Source: a bacterium
GTDB lineage: Bacteria > Armatimonadota > Chthonomonadetes > Chthonomonadales > Chthonomonadaceae
Assembly: GCA_021805395.1 (NCBI GenBank)
Contig: JAJZFJ010000233.1
Location: forward strand, 1-37,247
Direction: 5' to 3'
DNA length: 37,247 nucleotides
Positions 3,236 to 17,643 of the stretch are shown here, piece after piece; the stretch's first letter is position 1; the number at the start of each line of letters is the position of its first letter. The translations under genes and the position numbers were made by a program. The notes under the pieces were generated by a model. It was not told the origin of the DNA and searched no databases. It worked only from the letters and a program-made list of their open reading frames with translations.

Positions 3236-4066
3236 CTATCTAACAGAAGGTTCATCAATCTGCACAAGGGCATTCATTGATTTATATGTGTCGTCGCTAA
3301 GTAACTGCCTGCTTATCTGTTTACCATTCTTTGTGAATATCCGGTACGTCTGCACACGAAACCCTGTCATTCCAGGGTTTCTGAGATATGCATAGTGTCC
3401 ATACGGACCAGACTCCGATACCATGCGCGATATCCTTTTCGGTCTTGTCTGTTCCAGCACAAGGGTAAGGATATGCACCTGGTATGGCGGCCGTCTGGGT
3501 GCCAGAACGCTCGCCACCAGACGGTTCTGCTCCGCATGGCACTCCAGTGTAACTGGCCATGGATACGGGTTTTTGATCTGCAGGTCTATCGTATACTGAG
3601 CCACTGCTGCATCTCTGCCAGGCGGCACATAGTCCGCTGTGTAGTCATGGTGATGCCTTTGTACTATCGTGAGGCCAGCAAGTAGTGCTGCATTGTACAG
3701 CGTGGAGGATGTCTGACAGACACCCCCTCCTGGCGCCATTATCAACTCTCCATCATAACTAACTGGGGCATCCACATATCCCCTGTCCTGAGACCACGAT
3801 CCCACTTTCCTGTTGAACGAGAAGACGCCTCCGGGAGGGATCGTGGTGTTGTTCAGCGTATTGCCAGCCAGTACAGCATTTCGCCGCTGGCGTGGTGTAC
3901 GTTGTGCGAGATTGGTAGCGTATGCGGCAATCTCTATCTCATGTGGGGATGCCGTAACTCCCAGGTTGAGTAAAAGTGCTCCTCCTGTAACCACCAGGAT
4001 AACCGGTACAATGATTTGAAGAGCCAGCCATGTCCTGTTCTGCTCGTGGTTTGCTGAACTGCTCAT
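3236..4066 (-). CDS. VanW family protein
   Basis: The product has 276 residues with one N-terminal membrane segment (about 12-34), so the bulk lies outside the cytoplasm. The VanW core is recognisable from the GGVFSFNRKVG block (about residue 78), then APGGGVCQTSSTLYNAALLAG (about 111-131), then HHHDYTADYVPPGRDAAV. VanW proteins are associated with peptidoglycan and glycopeptide-resistance loci, but their biochemical role is not settled. The first 4 bases overlap the end of the macroglobulin gene (ATGA type), so the two are translationally coupled, which suggests a shared role at the cell wall or periplasm. The family call is secure; the function is not. Confidence 0.9.
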   Translation of the reverse strand: MSSSANHEQNRTWLALQIIVPVILVVTGGALLLNLGVTASPHEIEIAAYATNLAQRTPRQRRNAVLAGNTLNNTTIPPGGVFSFNRKVGSWSQDRGYVDAPVSYDGELIMAPGGGVCQTSSTLYNAALLAGLTIVQRHHHDYTADYVPPGRDAAVAQYTIDLQIKNPYPWPVTLECHAEQNRLVASVLAPRRPPYQVHILTLVLEQTRPKRISRMVSESGPYGHYAYLRNPGMTGFRVQTYRIFTKNGKQISRQLLSDDTYKSMNALVQIDEPSVR

Positions 4067-7000
4067 TGTCCTGCCCTCACAGTGAGCAGATTGACAGGCG
4101 TCTCAGCATGCTCACCGGGTGCATATACTCCTTGCAGCTCTGTTGGGAGCGCACTATATAACCCAGGAGTTTGAACGCGAAGATTATACTCAATAACGCT
4201 GTCCCCTTTTGGTAAAGAGGTGGTGAAGAATGCAATCCGATCATCGCGTACATCCTCTCCAGACCACCAGTAGTTCCAGTCCTCATCATCCAGCGTGTCG
4301 TCGGAATAGTCCTGTACATCAGGTGTGCATCCTGCAGGAAATGGATCGACCAGCATTACATGCGTCATATTGGAAGGCGAGTGTATTTTGATATGCACCC
4401 GTATCAGCTCTCCCGGTGTGAGTACATCACCAGCGGGTTGTGTTTTAACGCCAGTCACTGTTCCACCAACGATCTTCAGATAACTTCGTGTCACAGTAAG
4501 CCCAGGAACATCAGACTGACTCGCTGACATATCAGGATTGATCTGCTGAAGTGTGATGGTATAGAAAACGGGACTGTTCCCTCCGGTTCTGGTAAGGGTA
4601 AGCTGATTTTTCCCGCCTTTCAGTAGTCTGGATGGTATCCAGACATCGATCTCCTGCTGTTGCAGTGTGTTACTGTTCAATGCGCAGCTACCAGCAGCTT
4701 GTCCATTTAGTGCAATCATCACATTGCCGGTGGATGTCTGTGTCTGGCTACTGTCTATCGTTGCACATAGAGCCAGGAGGGATTCCACCGTAGCCCTGTC
4801 ATCCATCCAGCCGTTGTCGATACGCTGCAGCATCAGCCATCGTATGCCAGGCTGCAGAAGTGTGCTATGCGGATCAGAATTTGCGATAGCACGCAACACA
4901 AGGGCGGTGGTGACATCACTATCGTCAGTTAGACCATTGTTAACAGTTCGCCAGTGCACCAGCTGCCCCTCATGTACTGCGCGTTTTCTAAGGAGAGACA
5001 GCGTATCTTCATCAGGCAGATTAAGAACCTGCTGAGTGAGTGTACGGTAAGCCAAGCCCGATGTGGTGTAAGCTGAAACCAGCATTTTGCGCTCTGCATC
5101 AAGTGCCTGCTTATGTCTGCCTGAAAGGGCTATGGCATATATCAGGAGCGGCTTAGTGGATGGTACACAGGTTTTGAGCATTAGTACAGCAGCATGCTGT
5201 GCTCGTGAAAGTGCTCCTGCATCCACAGGAACCCCATAAGCACGCGCTGTCGCGAGGGCTATGAGAGCATCGCTCGTCATATCCGGAGTGCTGGCATCGA
5301 AATGACACCAGCCCCAGCCGCCATCCTGATGCTGAAGCCTGTAGAGCCTTGCCAGTGCCTCAGTTACGGCATGTCTAACATCTGCAGAACTGGTTGTCTG
5401 CAATCCGTATTTGCTTAGGGTATGTCTCACAGTGAGTGAGGCAATCACAGTATCGGCTGTCTCATCCACAAACGAATATGGATAGTCAATCAGATTTTGC
5501 AGACCACCATTCAAAATGGAGCCAGGCGATGGGTTTAGTCTTACAAGCATAGTGCTTGACCCAAGAGTACTGCGTGAGTCAATTCGGAAGGTTTCGGTCT
5601 GTGATTCACTTGCATCCACAACACCTGAAACAGATGTCGAGATTCGTCTTCCATAGGGCACTATCTTAAGACTTTTTGTAAGACCATCTGAATATTGCAC
5701 ACCGTTGCTGCCCTTGATAGTCCATGCAGCCGCTGTCATGGAGACAGTTCCCGCAGTGGGACACTCTACTTGCCATGTCACAGACCCTGTTGCTCCACTT
5801 GCAATCTGTATAGACTGTGTGGAGGGTGTATCAAGGGTGATTCCGTTGCAATTAAGCCGGACGAAGGCAGTTTGTGGAGATCCTGTCTGATTGTGTACAA
5901 ACGCTGAGAACTCAGATTTGTCGTTTTGGGTGAGAGTAGCCGGCAGCTCCAGCTGTACCATGAATGGCTTTGTAACCTGGATTTTGCACATTCCAGAGCC
6001 TATAGCCGTCTCACTGGAAATCGCAACTGCAGTAGCTCTCCAGACTGTTAAATTATCTGGCAGAGTGAAACTGACATTTGCCACGCCCTGTGAATTTGTA
6101 TGAATTTCCGGGTTCCAGTAGGCTGTGTTCTTGAACTTGCTTCTCGCCACAATTTTTGGTTCTGCCTTATCAGCATCGCCAAGATAGACGGAATCGAAAG
6201 AGGTATCTGTATTCACATTGTTTGATCTTGATGGGTAGAAGTTACGGGCAAGTGACGTAGGGTCCCAATCCCTCATAGCGTAGATTGCCTCGTCTGATAC
6301 TCCAAAAGCCAGATCAGTGGAAACAGGGTGTCCCTGCATATCAGTCACATGCACCGTGAACTCTGCACTGTGACCGGGCAGATAGTTCGCCATGCCAGAA
6401 CTTGAAGCGGCTGCATGATTCGGTGTGACCCAAACTTTCAGCTGCTTCATCGTTAACAAAACTCTTAAAGGTGCTTCCGATGTTGCAAAGTGTGAATGAT
6501 GCACATAGCAGACATCCAGATATACATTTGGTCCGTATCTTTTCAGAATTGGAATATGTACTATGGTTGAATGTTGTGAAAGAACTACTGTCTGAGCAGA
6601 GTATATGCTGTTGCCTTCAACTGTCACAAGAGCTGTAACACCAACTGTAGGGCTGATGATAAGTGCTTTTGCGATATCTCCCGGGTTGTACTGCCTTTTA
6701 TCGGTAAGTAAAGATAGACTGTTCAACGATGTATCGCCGCCGTCTCCATTATCTGTTGCTGCCCAAATATCGCTACTGGCATGTACAATCTTTCCAGTGC
6801 TATCCGTTGCTGTCACTGAGAGGTCGTAATCGCCAGGTTTAGGCGGAGTAACGGGAAAAACTACCTGACCACTCGCATTGGTAGTTCCGTGAAGAGTTTG
6901 CGCAGCTCGCTTGCTCTGATGCAGATTGCCGTCTGCATCCCAGTGATTACGATACAGCTTGAGGGTTACAGGCACATTCATGCCTGGAGTTCCATCATAG

Positions 7001-8919
7001 TTCTGAGTGGAAATCACAGTCTCATCCACTTCTCCAGGCGTTGCCAGATATCCAGTAGGCTCCACTGTAAGCCGAAACAGTCCTGCAACCACTGGCACAG
7101 TTACATCCTGCTCAACGTCCCTCTGCTGAGCTCCGGTTACATCAATGCTGCAGGTGTAGTCAACTTCCTGTGGAAGGTCTGAAATGGGTTCAGAAGAATC
7201 TGCGGCTTTGAATTTAATGGTTGCTTCTCCATTTGCATCCAGGGTTGCTGTACCGCTTGCAATCTGATTACCGTAGTATTGAGATCCGTAGAGATTTGAG
7301 AGGAAATCGCTGCTGCCATTCTGGCTGTATCCAAAATCGTCCGGGTAATCCATTGCATAGTTAGGAGATGAGTACACATCGTAACTAACAGGAGCAGATC
7401 CGAGTGGTGCTCCAGAATACCAGGATGCTTTCACTTTAATGGTGACAGTCTGTCCTCTAAAATATCGTGGCTTTAGAGGCGTGGCAGTCACAGAAAATTG
7501 TGGTTTATGGTACGCATTCACAATCACATTATGCGAATAGCTGCTTCCACCACCAGCAATTACGGTATTAAGTGTGTACACCCCTGTGGAGTACTGTTTA
7601 AGAAGAGTGATTGTGCCAAAATATGTCCCCCATTGAGAGAGAACAAAGCTCTTCCCAAATACCTCAACACCATTAGGGTCCAGCAGTTCCACAAACACTC
7701 TTTTTCCAACCGGTATGGTGTATCGTGCTGGAAGAGAGTTTACTCCTGGTGAGATGGCGTGATACTCTGGAAATGTGTTCTCACGCACAACCCCTTTGAA
7801 TCTGATCGTTTGCCCCGGCCGATAAAGAGTTCTGTCTGTGTAATCGAACACAGCATATTGTTGTGAACTGTTAGTGAAGTCAGACAGGTTTGCCTGCCAC
7901 TCTGCCTCGTCATCTCCATTGTCCGCCAGCAGATAGGCAGTGTTGGGATTATTGTTGTTACCAATATTAAGCGGAATATGAAGCTGGCACAGCCCAGATT
8001 TATCTGTAATTCCAGTCGCTATTTTGCTGTTTTTTATGTAAAACGCCACTCTGCTGCCAGATATTGGTTCGCCTGTATGGATATTAACCACGTATGCAAG
8101 TAACTGTGTTCTCACCGCTTTGGTCACAATTGCAGTATCTGTAATATCCAGCCAGGTGCAGCAGTGGTTTGTCTCGTGACGCAAATTGATGAGATAGATA
8201 CCTGGCTTTAGCAGAGGAAGATAGTTACGCTGGTAGTAGAACCCCTCCCTGTTCGCAGTTTTAATAAGAACTGTTTTGTGAATGATGAGCACTGGCTTGC
8301 TGCCACTCACCGGGTTTAGCAGCGTCTCTGGCAGAGTTGGTGCAGGATCGGAATCTCTGCCGACTGTCTGAAAGTCAGTAGCTGATCTGGAGTTGCTCAA
8401 TATATTGGCGAACGTGGTTCTGTAGACGTCTATATGAAACCTGTCGGTTTTAGGCGGTCGATGTGAATCGGTATATCCCCGCACAGCAATAAGTGCTCGT
8501 TTGTTTGTACCCACCATTCTTTGATGCACTACCACTGAGAAAACGGGCATGTTCCGCTTTAAACCAAGTGCGATGGGAGTATCCGCACCCTCAAGAACAG
8601 TTATCTTGCTGCTCTGGACATCATGCTCTTCAGCAGATGCCGAGATCTCATAATCACCAGCAGGTACGTTTGGTATGATAAAGTGCCCTTTTGAATTGGA
8701 GATAGCGATCCTCACGGTATTTCCCGGTTCGTTTTGCACCTCCTGCATAAGGTATATCTCAGCACCACGATATGGCTGGAGACTGTCTGTCAGGTACACT
8801 TTTCCTGAGATCTCTCCCACAGGTACTTCAGCGTGAATCAGGTAATTCAGACTGAATCCTATCCCAATGAGTGCAAATATCAGTGCAAGGTTTCTGGGAA
8901 GTGGGGAACTGGAGTTCAT
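4063..8919 (-). CDS. alpha-2-macroglobulin family protein lacking the thioester motif
   Basis: The product has 1618 residues, similar in size to bacterial alpha-2-macroglobulins. An N-terminal hydrophobic segment (about 8-27) is followed by a carboxypeptidase-regulatory-like beta domain (about 33-110, EISGKVYLTD to AGDYEISAS). A macroglobulin domain then carries the family hallmark LYRPGQTIRFKG (about residue 360). Further macroglobulin domains follow, with the characteristic NPEIHTNSQGVANVSFTLPDNLTVWR spread over about 980-1005, then a helical thioester-like domain (about 1120-1400) and a C-terminal beta domain. In thioester members the domain opens with YPYxCxEQ. Here the same place (about 5455-5490) reads YPYSFVDET, so both the Cys and the Gln are absent. 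GGWGWC follows about 60 residues later. The protein is probably periplasmic and may trap or bind proteases, or play a structural role, without covalent linkage. It overlaps both neighbouring genes by 4 bases. Confidence 0.9.
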   Translation of the reverse strand: MNSSSPLPRNLALIFALIGIGFSLNYLIHAEVPVGEISGKVYLTDSLQPYRGAEIYLMQEVQNEPGNTVRIAISNSKGHFIIPNVPAGDYEISASAEEHDVQSSKITVLEGADTPIALGLKRNMPVFSVVVHQRMVGTNKRALIAVRGYTDSHRPPKTDRFHIDVYRTTFANILSNSRSATDFQTVGRDSDPAPTLPETLLNPVSGSKPVLIIHKTVLIKTANREGFYYQRNYLPLLKPGIYLINLRHETNHCCTWLDITDTAIVTKAVRTQLLAYVVNIHTGEPISGSRVAFYIKNSKIATGITDKSGLCQLHIPLNIGNNNNPNTAYLLADNGDDEAEWQANLSDFTNSSQQYAVFDYTDRTLYRPGQTIRFKGVVRENTFPEYHAISPGVNSLPARYTIPVGKRVFVELLDPNGVEVFGKSFVLSQWGTYFGTITLLKQYSTGVYTLNTVIAGGGSSYSHNVIVNAYHKPQFSVTATPLKPRYFRGQTVTIKVKASWYSGAPLGSAPVSYDVYSSPNYAMDYPDDFGYSQNGSSDFLSNLYGSQYYGNQIASGTATLDANGEATIKFKAADSSEPISDLPQEVDYTCSIDVTGAQQRDVEQDVTVPVVAGLFRLTVEPTGYLATPGEVDETVISTQNYDGTPGMNVPVTLKLYRNHWDADGNLHQSKRAAQTLHGTTNASGQVVFPVTPPKPGDYDLSVTATDSTGKIVHASSDIWAATDNGDGGDTSLNSLSLLTDKRQYNPGDIAKALIISPTVGVTALVTVEGNSIYSAQTVVLSQHSTIVHIPILKRYGPNVYLDVCYVHHSHFATSEAPLRVLLTMKQLKVWVTPNHAAASSSGMANYLPGHSAEFTVHVTDMQGHPVSTDLAFGVSDEAIYAMRDWDPTSLARNFYPSRSNNVNTDTSFDSVYLGDADKAEPKIVARSKFKNTAYWNPEIHTNSQGVANVSFTLPDNLTVWRATAVAISSETAIGSGMCKIQVTKPFMVQLELPATLTQNDKSEFSAFVHNQTGSPQTAFVRLNCNGITLDTPSTQSIQIASGATGSVTWQVECPTAGTVSMTAAAWTIKGSNGVQYSDGLTKSLKIVPYGRRISTSVSGVVDASESQTETFRIDSRSTLGSSTMLVRLNPSPGSILNGGLQNLIDYPYSFVDETADTVIASLTVRHTLSKYGLQTTSSADVRHAVTEALARLYRLQHQDGGWGWCHFDASTPDMTSDALIALATARAYGVPVDAGALSRAQHAAVLMLKTCVPSTKPLLIYAIALSGRHKQALDAERKMLVSAYTTSGLAYRTLTQQVLNLPDEDTLSLLRKRAVHEGQLVHWRTVNNGLTDDSDVTTALVLRAIANSDPHSTLLQPGIRWLMLQRIDNGWMDDRATVESLLALCATIDSSQTQTSTGNVMIALNGQAAGSCALNSNTLQQQEIDVWIPSRLLKGGKNQLTLTRTGGNSPVFYTITLQQINPDMSASQSDVPGLTVTRSYLKIVGGTVTGVKTQPAGDVLTPGELIRVHIKIHSPSNMTHVMLVDPFPAGCTPDVQDYSDDTLDDEDWNYWWSGEDVRDDRIAFFTTSLPKGDSVIEYNLRVQTPGLYSALPTELQGVYAPGEHAETPVNLLTVRAGQ

Positions 8920-10592
8920 GGCTGTACTCCCGTTGTTTGTCCATTAGATCGGATGAATGATCTCTTTGAACTCACTCTGTCTGCTATATCTGTTAACAAT
9001 GAAAATACGCCAATACATAGCAGAATAATGATAACAACATGCGCTTTTTCTGCGCGGCTCCACAGCGCAAGGGGAAGCACAAAATGTGTCCACTGAGACA
9101 TTGCCAGAGCTATTCCCATAGCGAGGAGAACAGGCCACACACGCAGGGCTGAGCTTGCCTTATCGTCTGCAGAGGATAGCATAAACATCGAGCATATCAC
9201 CGGATTAACCACTAATCCCATAAAAATACCGTCAGCACATTTGGGTCCAAATATCAGCAGCAGCAGAAAGGGAGTAAGCAGTGTGGTTAAACCAAGAATG
9301 GCTAAGCGAAAAAGTGAAATAGTTTCACTCTCAGCCCGGCTTCGGAGCATATACCCTGACTGCAGAATTGGTGTAAGCAGCCCAACAAGGAACCCGAACA
9401 ACGCATAGTGTGCTGTAATGTGAGTGCCCTGGAGATCTGCATGAAACCTTACATCAAACAGCCTGTATAACCCTAACAGGGAACCGGCGGCTAAAACAGA
9501 CAGAATCTCAAAACCTGTTCCACTCTCGTCGCTTTCAGTGCCAGTAGTTAGGACATGAATAGTTGGTAAAGAAGCCAGCCAAACAGCCGTCATTGTGATA
9601 CCAACCCCTATTCCTGCCATAAGCTGATAGGCTACCATACCGGCAGAGAGAATCACCAGGAAAGCAAGAGCTCCATTCTGCCAGCGGGTGGGTATCTCTC
9701 GTCCAGGAAGACTTGCTCTGGTGCTTACAAGCCAACTCACCGATATACCTGCACATGCTCCCACCAGTACAAGTATCGCGAACGGGGGGTGGTCAGAAGT
9801 CTTCTGTGCTAACATTATAGCGATGATAATGAGAATGAATGACATGAATGCGCCCCTCAACATGCCATCGAGTATCTTTCGGCTTCTCTCATCTGGCAGA
9901 AACCTGCTCACAATATCTCTTACTTGGTTAGAACCTGGGAGAGAGGATGTCCAACTCATTGGAATAAGAGTCAGCATAAGCAGCAGCGGCATCGAGGAGA
10001 GCAGAAGAATGGTAATGGCACTCCAGTGCAGCGGCATCACATCACTCGCAAACCTCACCTGCTCACGAAATTCTGACACAGACAAAAGCGCTGTAGATGT
10101 AACCACCATGCCTAGTCCAGACATAAGATAAAGAAGAGTGGCTCGCCCTGCAGGACCAGTACGAAGCAGATAAACTGCAGCGATTGTGATTTCTGTCACC
10201 CAGCCAATAGCAATTCCCATCTGGGCATCCAGAAGAATATGACGCATCCATATTTCGGGAATAGCCGCACATAATACCGCACTCACAATAGGACCCGCTT
10301 GTGCTACTCGGCGCTGCTCCCCGCCAGCCAGGAGCGGAAGTAAAGCAACAAGAGCCCCTATGGCACCTATAACGAAACCTTTACCAAATCCTCCTCCGGC
10401 AGAGAAAGGAGGATGAGTGGGAGAAGTTCCCAATATCACGATCACTGGCATTGCAATGAGAGCACACACAATTAGCGGCTGTTTGAGAATGCACTGTATT
10501 CCGGTTTTTATCTCTTTAAAAGATAAAAGATAGACTGAGACTTTAGATAGCAGAATGATAACGAATGCAGTAATAAAAAGATGATGTTCCAC
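8916..10592 (-). CDS. polytopic membrane protein of unknown function
   Basis: The product has about 558 residues. I chose GTG at 10592 because GGAGGA (10601-10606 on this strand) lies 8 bases upstream; the frame is open back to 10688 but lacks a comparable site. The sequence holds roughly a dozen or more hydrophobic segments separated by short loops, including a glycine-rich SAGGGFGKG loop near the start. There is no large soluble domain and no transporter motif that I recognise. Its stop overlaps the start of the macroglobulin gene by 4 bases, making it the first gene of a three-gene operon with the macroglobulin and VanW. It may anchor, export or flip something for them; that is inference only. 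Confidence 0.75.
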   Translation of the reverse strand: MEHHLFITAFVIILLSKVSVYLLSFKEIKTGIQCILKQPLIVCALIAMPVIVILGTSPTHPPFSAGGGFGKGFVIGAIGALVALLPLLAGGEQRRVAQAGPIVSAVLCAAIPEIWMRHILLDAQMGIAIGWVTEITIAAVYLLRTGPAGRATLLYLMSGLGMVVTSTALLSVSEFREQVRFASDVMPLHWSAITILLLSSMPLLLMLTLIPMSWTSSLPGSNQVRDIVSRFLPDERSRKILDGMLRGAFMSFILIIIAIMLAQKTSDHPPFAILVLVGACAGISVSWLVSTRASLPGREIPTRWQNGALAFLVILSAGMVAYQLMAGIGVGITMTAVWLASLPTIHVLTTGTESDESGTGFEILSVLAAGSLLGLYRLFDVRFHADLQGTHITAHYALFGFLVGLLTPILQSGYMLRSRAESETISLFRLAILGLTTLLTPFLLLLIFGPKCADGIFMGLVVNPVICSMFMLSSADDKASSALRVWPVLLAMGIALAMSQWTHFVLPLALWSRAEKAHVVIIILLCIGVFSLLTDIADRVSSKRSFIRSNGQTTGVQP

Positions 10593-11101
10593 AATCCGAT
10601 CCTCCAGAAATGAAAACAAAATTGTTCGATGTACAGAAATTATTAATGCAAAAAGAGTGTCTTCTCTCACATACACAGAAGAAAGCACTTGATAGATTCA
10701 GCAGATTGTATTATTTTGTGGTTCAGGTAAAAGGAGTCGGATTGTGACTGAAGTAAACAGTTTTTGTTCTGGAGGTCGTGAAACATTTCTGATTTTTACA
10801 AACTGTTATTACGAGCAGGCTGGGGAGGAAATTAAAGCATGTACGTTGGAAAGGGTCCGCATCAACAGCGGGCAGTCCACCCTCTTCTGAAATGGAGTGA
10901 TCCATAGTTAACAATCTGAGACCTGTCCTCTTTCTCGCTTTGAATAAGCGGTATACAGAAAATGAGATTGAAATACAAACACCCTCAAGACTATCTGTTT
11001 GAGGTTATGGATATAGACGTGGTGATAATGCAATAAGTGTCAGGATTTTTTAACTTTTTTTACATGCTGATCAGTCTTTTATTTCTTAACGCCTTAACCA
11101 G
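10593..11101. other. 509-base intergenic stretch between two minus-strand units
   Basis: This holds the promoter region of the membrane protein operon and the 3' flank of the PemK-like gene. I see an imperfect small hairpin with a 6-bp stem CCTCAA/TTGAGG (10983-10988 with 10999-11004), an A+T-rich tail with a run of T at 11047-11062, and one possible small plus-strand reading frame listed separately. No RNA gene or repeat is recognised. Confidence 0.5.
10744..10890 (+). CDS. possible small open reading frame, 48 residues
   Basis: A GTG start at 10744 is preceded by AGGAG (10732-10736) with a 7-base gap, an unusually good ribosome binding site for random sequence. The 48-residue product starts VTEVNSFCSGG, has three cysteines, and has a hydrophilic C-terminal half (LERVRINSG). 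It has no signal peptide and matches no family that I know. The opposing minus-strand frame over the same place (10723-10914) looks less natural. This may be a real small gene or chance. Confidence 0.25.
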   Translation: MTEVNSFCSGGRETFLIFTNCYYEQAGEEIKACTLERVRINSGQSTLF

Positions 11102-15805: not shown

Positions 15806-17506
15806 TTAGTGGCCATGAGAGACTTTCTTCTTGGGAGTTGCAGTTACCTTAGCTGGAGTGTTAGATCCAGTGTCCGAACTCGTATCCGTTGTCTCAGCCG
15901 GGATTGTAGCTGTGAGATCGTTTCCTGATATCGTCTCATCACCTTTTGCTGTCCCGATTATGAAAGGCTGATCTGTCTCCATTGTCTGTCCCTCACTATC
16001 CTGATAGTGGATGGGTGGATAGAGTGTGAGGGTTTGAGCTGTCTGATCATACACTGCATGGTCTGCCGTTCCCTGACGTGTAATCTGCTTTCCGTCACTC
16101 ATAAACTTCTGCATAAATTTAAGATGCCCAGACAGCTCTGCTATACGTGTGTTGGAGTGATAAACAACTTTATCGCAGTTCACCACCATGCCATGCTCCC
16201 TGATATTGGCACCGGGGTGCTCCTGAGTAGAAACGCCTGGTGGTGGCGGAGTAGGTTTAATGGTGAGAACAACCGAGTTGTAAAATATCCTCTCATGTAA
16301 CAGTTGGTCTATATGTGCTTTTTCACAGGTTGCATGGTATTCAGGTGAATCATATACCAGGTGTCCTTTAGCATCCATCTGATGAGTACGCGTGTTCCAG
16401 GTGGCATAATCCCCCGTAATTGTGGCGTCTCCATCTACGCAGTTGAATGGAAACCCGTAATATATTCCTGTGGCCGAAGATCCTTCTGCATGCTTTGCGT
16501 GAATCACAAGTGGCTTGGAAACGTGTGGTGCGGGCTGAGTCGATGTCGTGCTCTGGAGAACAGTGGCTGCTAGTGCAATGGTATGAAGAAGGTTCATTTG
16601 ACCCATATCCTTCGTTTGATTCATAGTGAGCGATAGATTTTGAATTATAAACTGATGCTTTTTTTCGTTCAGAATTAGACTGGAGGCAGAAAATGGACTA
16701 TTTTCCAAACTGCCACTTACATTCTGGGGACAGTAGAGAGAATCGGTTGCAAGAGTAAGATAAGCACTTTGACTGACTAGTCTGGTTGCCGAAGTCTTAT
16801 TGGAAAGATCTGTGGCGACAACACCTCCTGTTGTTTCTACCACCTTTCCTGCGGGATCGAAGCGTAATTGGTTAGCTGAAATGGAAAGAGTTGGAGTAGT
16901 TAAGACTGCACCTTTATTACAAACTATAATCTGCTGCGGCTTTCCCGTTCTTCTATTAATAGTTTGGAAAAAATCCAGTTTAGGTGCCGATATCTTCTCA
17001 TTGCCTGAAGTTTGCAAGTTAACTCCATTATCCAGCTTAAATTCCCATTGAACAAGGTGATACTGAGTTAGAGTAACAGGCATACTGGTAAAACTACCCG
17101 TTGTGTAATGTCCTTCACCTGCCTTAAATGTTATGTTCTCCGGTTTGTGGCTAACGGAGCTAGAATGCCCATTCTGTCTTGAGGAGTAGATAACTCCGTT
17201 AGTGATTTGTGTGATATCAGCACTCCCCACAGCATCTGTTGCTCCAGATTGAGGTCGGTTTACCTTAATCTGATCTGCATGTACCGTCCAGTCTGGTTTT
17301 CCATCAGTGCTGCTTGTGAAGCTGCCATTATTCAGGATTACACTTGGAGTAAGTCCCACGCCTCCTGCATAAGTTGTTTGAGGTACATAGTGAGGCTGTG
17401 CCCATATATATAGCAAAGTGATAGCCGAAACAACTATTACAAAAGCAGCTGTATTCCTGATTTTAACTATATTGCGTTTTTTCCTGATAGTTAAGTCACT
17501 TGGCAC
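15806..17506 (-). CDS. LptC/LptA (OstA)-like LPS export protein
   Basis: The product has about 566 residues from GTG 17506 (VPSDLTIRKK), chosen because GAGGAG (17514-17519, this strand) lies 7 bases upstream; the frame is open to 17551. A single hydrophobic segment (about residues 18-36) anchors it. The next part (PDWTVHADQIKV, QWEFKLDNG) looks like an LptC-type jellyroll domain. The second half (VDGDATITGDYATWNTRTHQMDAKGHLVYDS) has the repeating strand pattern of LptA/OstA, followed by a low-complexity Thr/Ser tail and a Lys/His end. In proteobacteria these are separate proteins of about 190 residues each that bridge lipopolysaccharide to the outer membrane, so this would be a fused or extended form. 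The family call is good; the exact division of domains is uncertain. Confidence 0.75.
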   Translation of the reverse strand: MPSDLTIRKKRNIVKIRNTAAFVIVVSAITLLYIWAQPHYVPQTTYAGGVGLTPSVILNNGSFTSSTDGKPDWTVHADQIKVNRPQSGATDAVGSADITQITNGVIYSSRQNGHSSSVSHKPENITFKAGEGHYTTGSFTSMPVTLTQYHLVQWEFKLDNGVNLQTSGNEKISAPKLDFFQTINRRTGKPQQIIVCNKGAVLTTPTLSISANQLRFDPAGKVVETTGGVVATDLSNKTSATRLVSQSAYLTLATDSLYCPQNVSGSLENSPFSASSLILNEKKHQFIIQNLSLTMNQTKDMGQMNLLHTIALAATVLQSTTSTQPAPHVSKPLVIHAKHAEGSSATGIYYGFPFNCVDGDATITGDYATWNTRTHQMDAKGHLVYDSPEYHATCEKAHIDQLLHERIFYNSVVLTIKPTPPPPGVSTQEHPGANIREHGMVVNCDKVVYHSNTRIAELSGHLKFMQKFMSDGKQITRQGTADHAVYDQTAQTLTLYPPIHYQDSEGQTMETDQPFIIGTAKGDETISGNDLTATIPAETTDTSSDTGSNTPAKVTATPKKKVSHGH

Positions 17507-17527
17507 CAGGCAGCTCCTCAATATTTC

Positions 17528-17533
17528 ATTGTA
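17528..17533 (-). promoter_or_regulatory. probable extended -10 promoter of the lptC/A-queC-serC unit
   Basis: On the minus strand TACAAT is preceded by TGC, giving the extended -10 form TGNTANAAT, 22 bases upstream of the GTG at 17506. Transcription would start about 15 bases before the start codon, leaving just enough leader for GAGGAG. No strong -35 hexamer is seen, which is usual for extended -10 promoters. Confidence 0.45.
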
Positions 17534-17643
17534 GCATATACGAAGATTCAAGTTTGTTTACATCTTAGCCGATACTCTTACACATTCTCTAAAATTAACA
17601 GTTACGGATACCTAGCACTATGTTTATCTGCAGGAGCATGCAT

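Follow-up and report, generated by a model that had tools for sequence, protein, structure and literature searches.

The three-gene operon described here, from a bacterium of the Chthonomonadaceae (Armatimonadota; Chthonomonadetes), combines a bacterial alpha-2-macroglobulin (A2M) and a VanW protein with a polytopic membrane protein (hereafter MEM), which is homologous to the membrane pyrophosphatases (M-PPases) by profile and fold comparison but, judging from its lost motifs, is not a pyrophosphatase. The module is widespread in Armatimonadota and normally thioester-armed. All of its parts are members or derivatives of known families. The new elements are the A2M-VanW pairing and, more surprisingly, the recruitment of an M-PPase that has shed its catalytic motifs; no relevant report of this pairing, or of an M-PPase with a macroglobulin, was found in the open-licence papers searched.

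The window, i.e. the whole stretch of 37,247 nucleotides analysed (contig JAJZFJ010000233.1), is part of a genome assembly of 4.16 Mb in 319 contigs. The three ORFs are on its minus strand in the order MEM, A2M and VanW (Table 1), and the four-base overlaps given in a preliminary description of this DNA were confirmed, with ATGA at both junctions and the coordinates right. MEM starts with GTG preceded by GGAGG; a longer alternative begins with the GTG at 10688, and the MERxL start of the relatives aligns at 10592. Scanning for promoters and terminators produced no matches above the chance level, and none were obtained with PADLOC. The organism is probably diderm, since a 581-aa ORF of the window (15806-17551, minus strand) carries LptC- and LptA-like stretches, which suggest lipopolysaccharide export and a diderm envelope.

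Table 1. Positions in the window of the three genes, their overlaps and the sites discussed in the text.
Feature	Position	Strand	Remarks
Gene 1, MEM	8916..10592	-	558-aa polytopic membrane protein; divergent M-PPase homologue (by profile and fold) without catalytic motifs
Gene 2, A2M	4063..8919	-	1618-aa bacterial alpha-2-macroglobulin; N-terminal hydrophobic segment; thioester Cys absent
Gene 3, VanW	3236..4066	-	276 aa; membrane helix 6-35, VanW domain 61-187, partial G5 domain 230-263
ATGA overlap, MEM stop / A2M start	8916..8919	-	
ATGA overlap, A2M stop / VanW start	4063..4066	-	
Degenerate thioester site YPYSFVDET, A2M residues 1146-1154	5458..5484	-	
A2M bait-region domain, residues 735-882	6274..6717	-	PF07703, E 1.6e-13
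Putative VanW catalytic residues Cys117, His138, His140 (GGGVCQ...RHHH)	3647..3718	-	Invariant in module alignment

A search of other genomes for the same three-gene order had been proposed earlier, with a neighbourhood not conserved in relatives as the outcome that would speak against a module. The order MEM-A2M-VanW was found to recur through 31 Chthonomonadetes genomes, where the genes mostly overlap or abut (gaps of -4 or near zero) and the flanking genes vary between genomes while the order stays. The co-conservation is also evident from the 24 good-quality genomes of the class, with MEM present in 21 (E <= 0.001) and the module A2M together with the module-type VanW in 22; MEM, A2M and VanW are jointly missing from two genomes (G027 and G028) that are 95-98% complete. 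VanW is located outside the locus in G013-G015 and G025, a clear orthologue (49-51% identity) being kept elsewhere in the genome. Across the phylum, MEM was detected in 78 of 255 Armatimonadota genomes, and the 12 MEM loci inspected have A2M directly downstream in nine cases, the sequence stopping in or just after MEM in the other three. Beyond the phylum, one weak match of 64 aa was obtained in 251 Chloroflexota.

MEM gave no match to Pfam, the PF03030 model included, and a profile search of the PDB sequences returned nothing up to E 10, so that its link to the M-PPases needs profile-profile or structure comparison. Structure prediction, as suggested in the preliminary description, yielded an AlphaFold2 model with a pLDDT of 85.7 and a pTM of 0.89, for which the best 34 matches in the PDB identified by Foldseek are all M-PPases (top E 3.9e-6, probability 1.00, TM ~0.6), the first other fold being ranked at E 0.34. 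Comparison by hhalign of 36 diverse MEM sequences with an M-PPase profile built from Chthonomonadetes and other phyla resulted in a collinear match of MEM columns 3-469 with M-PPase columns 68-702 (probability 98.3, score 127), and with only the 14 non-class MEM sequences the probability was 98.0 over MEM 1-526. The probability had been 6% in an early comparison of 18 MEM rows with M-PPases of the class only, and increased to 98% once both sides were diverse. Controls against MEM (reversed, MurJ, Nuo antiporter) scored 15-23 and M-PPase against MurJ 31, all with probabilities below 4. Block-shuffled MEM controls scored up to 81, compared to 101 for the unshuffled query-centred profile; these are an unclean null because the shuffled blocks retain true local matches, and reversed profiles and unrelated families took their place.

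The M-PPase motifs DVGADLVGK, EDDPRN...DNVGDNVGD, D.FGPI.DNA.GI.E and GNTTKA are gapped in MEM or aligned to unrelated residues, and the last motif (DTVGDPFKDTAGP) is outside the aligned range of the window-centred MEM alignment. MEM thus has the fold and the sequence homology of the M-PPases and, within the aligned range, lacks their catalytic motifs, a combination that makes it look like a non-hydrolytic branch of the M-PPase superfamily; the open-licence papers searched report no other M-PPase relative. A true M-PPase (PF03030) is encoded separately in 30 of the 31 class genomes, and none was found in the genome of the window, for which incompleteness of the assembly is a possible reason. 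The earlier view of the membrane protein as wholly unknown is superseded by the Foldseek and hhalign results, and the distinct envelope module with a new membrane partner, suggested at the same time, is retained as regards the conserved gene order and a partner undescribed in the literature searched, this partner being an M-PPase homologue. In a Fimbriimonadaceae genome (L263 and L264; G262:C12), an M-PPase was observed within an open frame of 1351 aa, possibly as a fusion.

The A2M of the window has the organisation of the bacterial alpha-2-macroglobulins (Pfam matches to MG2, bMG3, bait region, A2M and bMG10), with profile matches to YfhM and A2M structures, and its nearest solved structures are those of YfhM and the Salmonella counterpart. 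No second A2M was detected in its genome. The CxEQ thioester of the type I A2Ms is lacking, and so is the six-gene mag-type operon of the type II A2Ms (MagD lineage), the neighbours being MEM and VanW. Alignment of the thioester region with the bacterial relatives, proposed in the preliminary description, bore out the reading YPYSFVDET given there, against YPYGCxEQT in the relatives, and as read from these residues the covalent trap is gone. The same description had treated the thioester-less state as a defining trait of the module, which is ruled out by the class as a whole, where 23 of 25 module A2Ms retain an intact CxEQ. Two depart from it, those of the window (SFVDE) and of G020 (SSVEQ); the full site of G020 reads YPYSSVEQ, with the Cys lost, and in G019 the motif reads SCVEQ. 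The Pfam model TED_complement matches the thioester-bearing relatives tested (3/3) and misses the two cysteine-less A2Ms of the window and G020, and the bait-region domain is matched in all five module A2Ms tested.

Four changes in the A2M of the window (C1150F, E1152D, Q1153E and W1205C) affect residues invariant in 15 thioester-bearing comparison sequences, a further one (T1374D) affects an otherwise invariant position, and all five are inside the thioester domain. Its frame is open throughout and it still looks constrained, as 113 of the 128 family-invariant residues are retained. In the A2M tree it is placed beside the sequences of G022 and G024 (both GCVEQ), with G020 outside (support 94/93). 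Since it is nested among CxEQ-bearing A2Ms, the thioester loss is, on this tree, secondary, and the topology suggests two separate losses, in the window and in G020. The VanW tree weakly groups the window with G020 (80/76). A single loss common to both is disfavoured by the A2M tree and not rejected by the AU test (p 0.085).

The VanW protein was identified by PF04294 (E 8.9e-43) and a partial match to the G5 domain; its structural model (pLDDT 83.4) matches the PDB only in the C-terminal part, to G5 structures, the VanW domain fold being without a match. VanW domains are reported to form a second L,D-transpeptidase family, whose catalytic arrangement or triad is of the Cys-His type (PMC12729407; PMC11986978), an activity missing from some VanW proteins (PMC12729407), and the linkage of VanW to resistance alone, assumed earlier, cannot be upheld in view of these reports. 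The Cys-His signature of the family is present in the VanW of the module (Table 1), a putative L,D-transpeptidase, which scores 61.9 bits with the glycopeptide-resistance equivalog NF033128, compared to its cut-off of 365, and is therefore not that equivalog.

For a wider view of how VanW lies relative to A2M, 80 A2M loci of other genomes were surveyed; as the survey was partly seeded with the thioester motif, its thioester counts were left out. VanW is encoded on the same strand within two genes of A2M at 24 of these loci, VanW ORFs numbering only 25 among the 1034 ORFs of the survey. The 24 loci come from records labelled Armatimonadota, Bacillota, Vampirovibrio/Obscuribacterales, Omnitrophota, Geobacter/Desulfuromonadales and Proteobacteria. 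At one of the 24, in a Firmicutes record (UBA6811; L125:7773-12893), a single ORF of 1706 aa carries VanW fused after the bMG10 domain of A2M. A2M-linked VanW proteins from other phyla also show the Cys and His of GGGxC...RxxH, with sequences read by eye where the strict pattern failed. The A2M-VanW pairs outside Armatimonadota are without MEM. The pairing suggests, by analogy with A2M-PbpC, a common theme of a protease trap beside a peptidoglycan cross-linker.

According to the preliminary description, bacterial A2Ms are usually found either with PbpC or on their own; the pairing of an A2M with this peptidoglycan cross-linking enzyme is indeed known, but so are thioester-less type II A2Ms, encoded in a six-gene mag operon (PMC5764988). 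MagD of Pseudomonas aeruginosa, which has no thioester, traps a protease non-covalently and needs MagB, a membrane protein (PMC5764988); it also gives protection from some T6SS effectors that target peptidoglycan (PMC12663445). The YfhM/PbpC system of E. coli (type I) shares with the module the A2M architecture and the pairing with a peptidoglycan cross-linking enzyme, putative here; its partner is PBP1c in place of VanW (a putative L,D-transpeptidase), whereas the present operon adds an M-PPase-like membrane protein and, in the window, has an A2M without the thioester. MagABCDEF of P. aeruginosa likewise combines, in one operon, an A2M lacking the thioester with a membrane partner, but comprises six genes as against three here, where MEM and VanW are the neighbours and the thioester loss appears secondary. 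The M-PPases (PF03030; TmPPase, 4av3) resemble MEM in fold and profile over most of its length and differ in their size of 600-800 aa (558 aa in MEM), in the catalytic Asp/Lys motifs absent from MEM and in their detection by the Pfam model. LdtCd4 and LdtCd5 of C. difficile are membrane-anchored too, and their VanW domain also conserves the Cys and His; it is accompanied by PG4 domains and not by a C-terminal G5 domain. The VanW of the module differs also in its A2M linkage and in that its activity is putative.

The most likely model, to which we give an even chance, is that the operon specifies a periplasmic guard anchored in the inner membrane, a complex with a defence function in which A2M would be the trap, VanW the re-cross-linker of the wall and MEM the platform. 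In its favour are the co-conservation of the three genes, the recurrent A2M-VanW coupling, the L,D-transpeptidase activity reported in the VanW family together with the invariant Cys and His of the module, the MagD precedent, the M-PPase homology of MEM and the apparent constraint on the A2M. A2M in the periplasm would close on an intruding protease after cleavage of the bait region; in the genomes of the window and G020, with their decayed thioester, trapping would be non-covalent, the A2M of the window plausibly working like MagD, a likeness of action that does not imply membership of the MagD lineage. VanW, with a one-helix anchor and a partial G5 domain, would re-cross-link the peptidoglycan by L,D cross-links at the site of the breach. 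MEM, an M-PPase scaffold minus the cytoplasmic catalytic loops, may hold and stabilise A2M and VanW in the manner of MagB for MagD, or may contribute a transport function. MagB has one predicted transmembrane segment, and against the anchor role drawn from this analogy it may be argued that a polytopic pump scaffold would appear too large for anchoring alone. The guard model is also weakened by the A2M-VanW pairs that do without MEM outside Armatimonadota and by the inactivity of some VanW proteins (PMC12729407).

MEM could instead be an active transporter, its M-PPase ring kept as a channel for ions or lipid carriers that is driven or gated by something else than pyrophosphate and supplies the module with a flux of ions or with a wall precursor linked to lipid. 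In favour of such a channel, the scaffold recurs over the phylum, and the charged residues D122, R377 and K451 are conserved along with glycines in the predicted helices, but all the M-PPase catalytic motifs of the aligned range fall in gaps and nothing points to a substrate, and we consider this transporter role rather unlikely. Slightly less credence is given to the module as a cell-wall building unit unconnected with defence, where A2M would be a large periplasmic scaffold for VanW with no protease target and hence a dispensable thioester. Its loss in two genomes that keep the rest of A2M, the natural A2M-VanW fusion (L125) and the cell-wall enzymes beside other A2Ms (PBP transpeptidase-SpoIID, L175) agree with a building unit; the thioester retained by nearly all module A2Ms does not, nor does the bait-region domain of every module A2M tested, superfluous in a pure scaffold.

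The sequence of the A2M itself may be accounted for by simple decay to a non-working protein, for which the clustering of the five substitutions in the thioester domain and the lost Pfam TED match can be cited. Decay is nevertheless improbable for an open frame of 1618 aa with intact translational overlaps, most of its invariant residues and no second A2M detected in the genome. That a sequencing error, as raised in the preliminary description, or a binning error conceals a CxEQ motif, a possibility favoured by an assembly of 319 contigs, is scarcely credible, as at least four codons are changed at or near one site with the frame undamaged and the Cys is lost in a second genome (G020) too.

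The M-PPases, so far an isolated family, gain an apparent non-catalytic relative, which raises the question of what the membrane ring of a pyrophosphatase can do without pyrophosphate. A general rule suggests itself, by which the macroglobulins of bacteria go together with an enzyme that cross-links peptidoglycan, in some bacteria PbpC and in others VanW, with one natural fusion. The long-standing hypothesis that such systems 'trap the attacker and mend the wall' becomes testable in new organisms, and the VanW proteins outside the resistance loci acquire a likely context.

Other A2M loci showed additional arrangements. A secreted AMMECR1-domain protein is often the other partner of the A2M-VanW pairs outside Armatimonadota; at L132, L138, L141, L142, L179, L192 and L197 (Vampirovibrio/Obscuribacterales, Omnitrophota, Geobacter/Desulfuromonadales and Bacillota records), it has an N-terminal hydrophobic segment, and a non-cytoplasmic AMMECR1 is unexpected. 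Two acidobacterial A2M loci (L135 and L175) encode a DUF1175 protein and a 6-TM protein, L175 also encoding, on the opposite strand, a fusion of a PBP transpeptidase with SpoIID. The AMMECR1-A2M-VanW and DUF1175-A2M-6TM loci resemble the module in that their A2M adjoins VanW, or else a membrane protein and cell-wall enzymes, and differ from it in that no M-PPase-like protein was found beside their A2M. In G018, an A2M of 2079 aa with a TPR-like stretch (L117:4727-10966) is encoded separately from the module.
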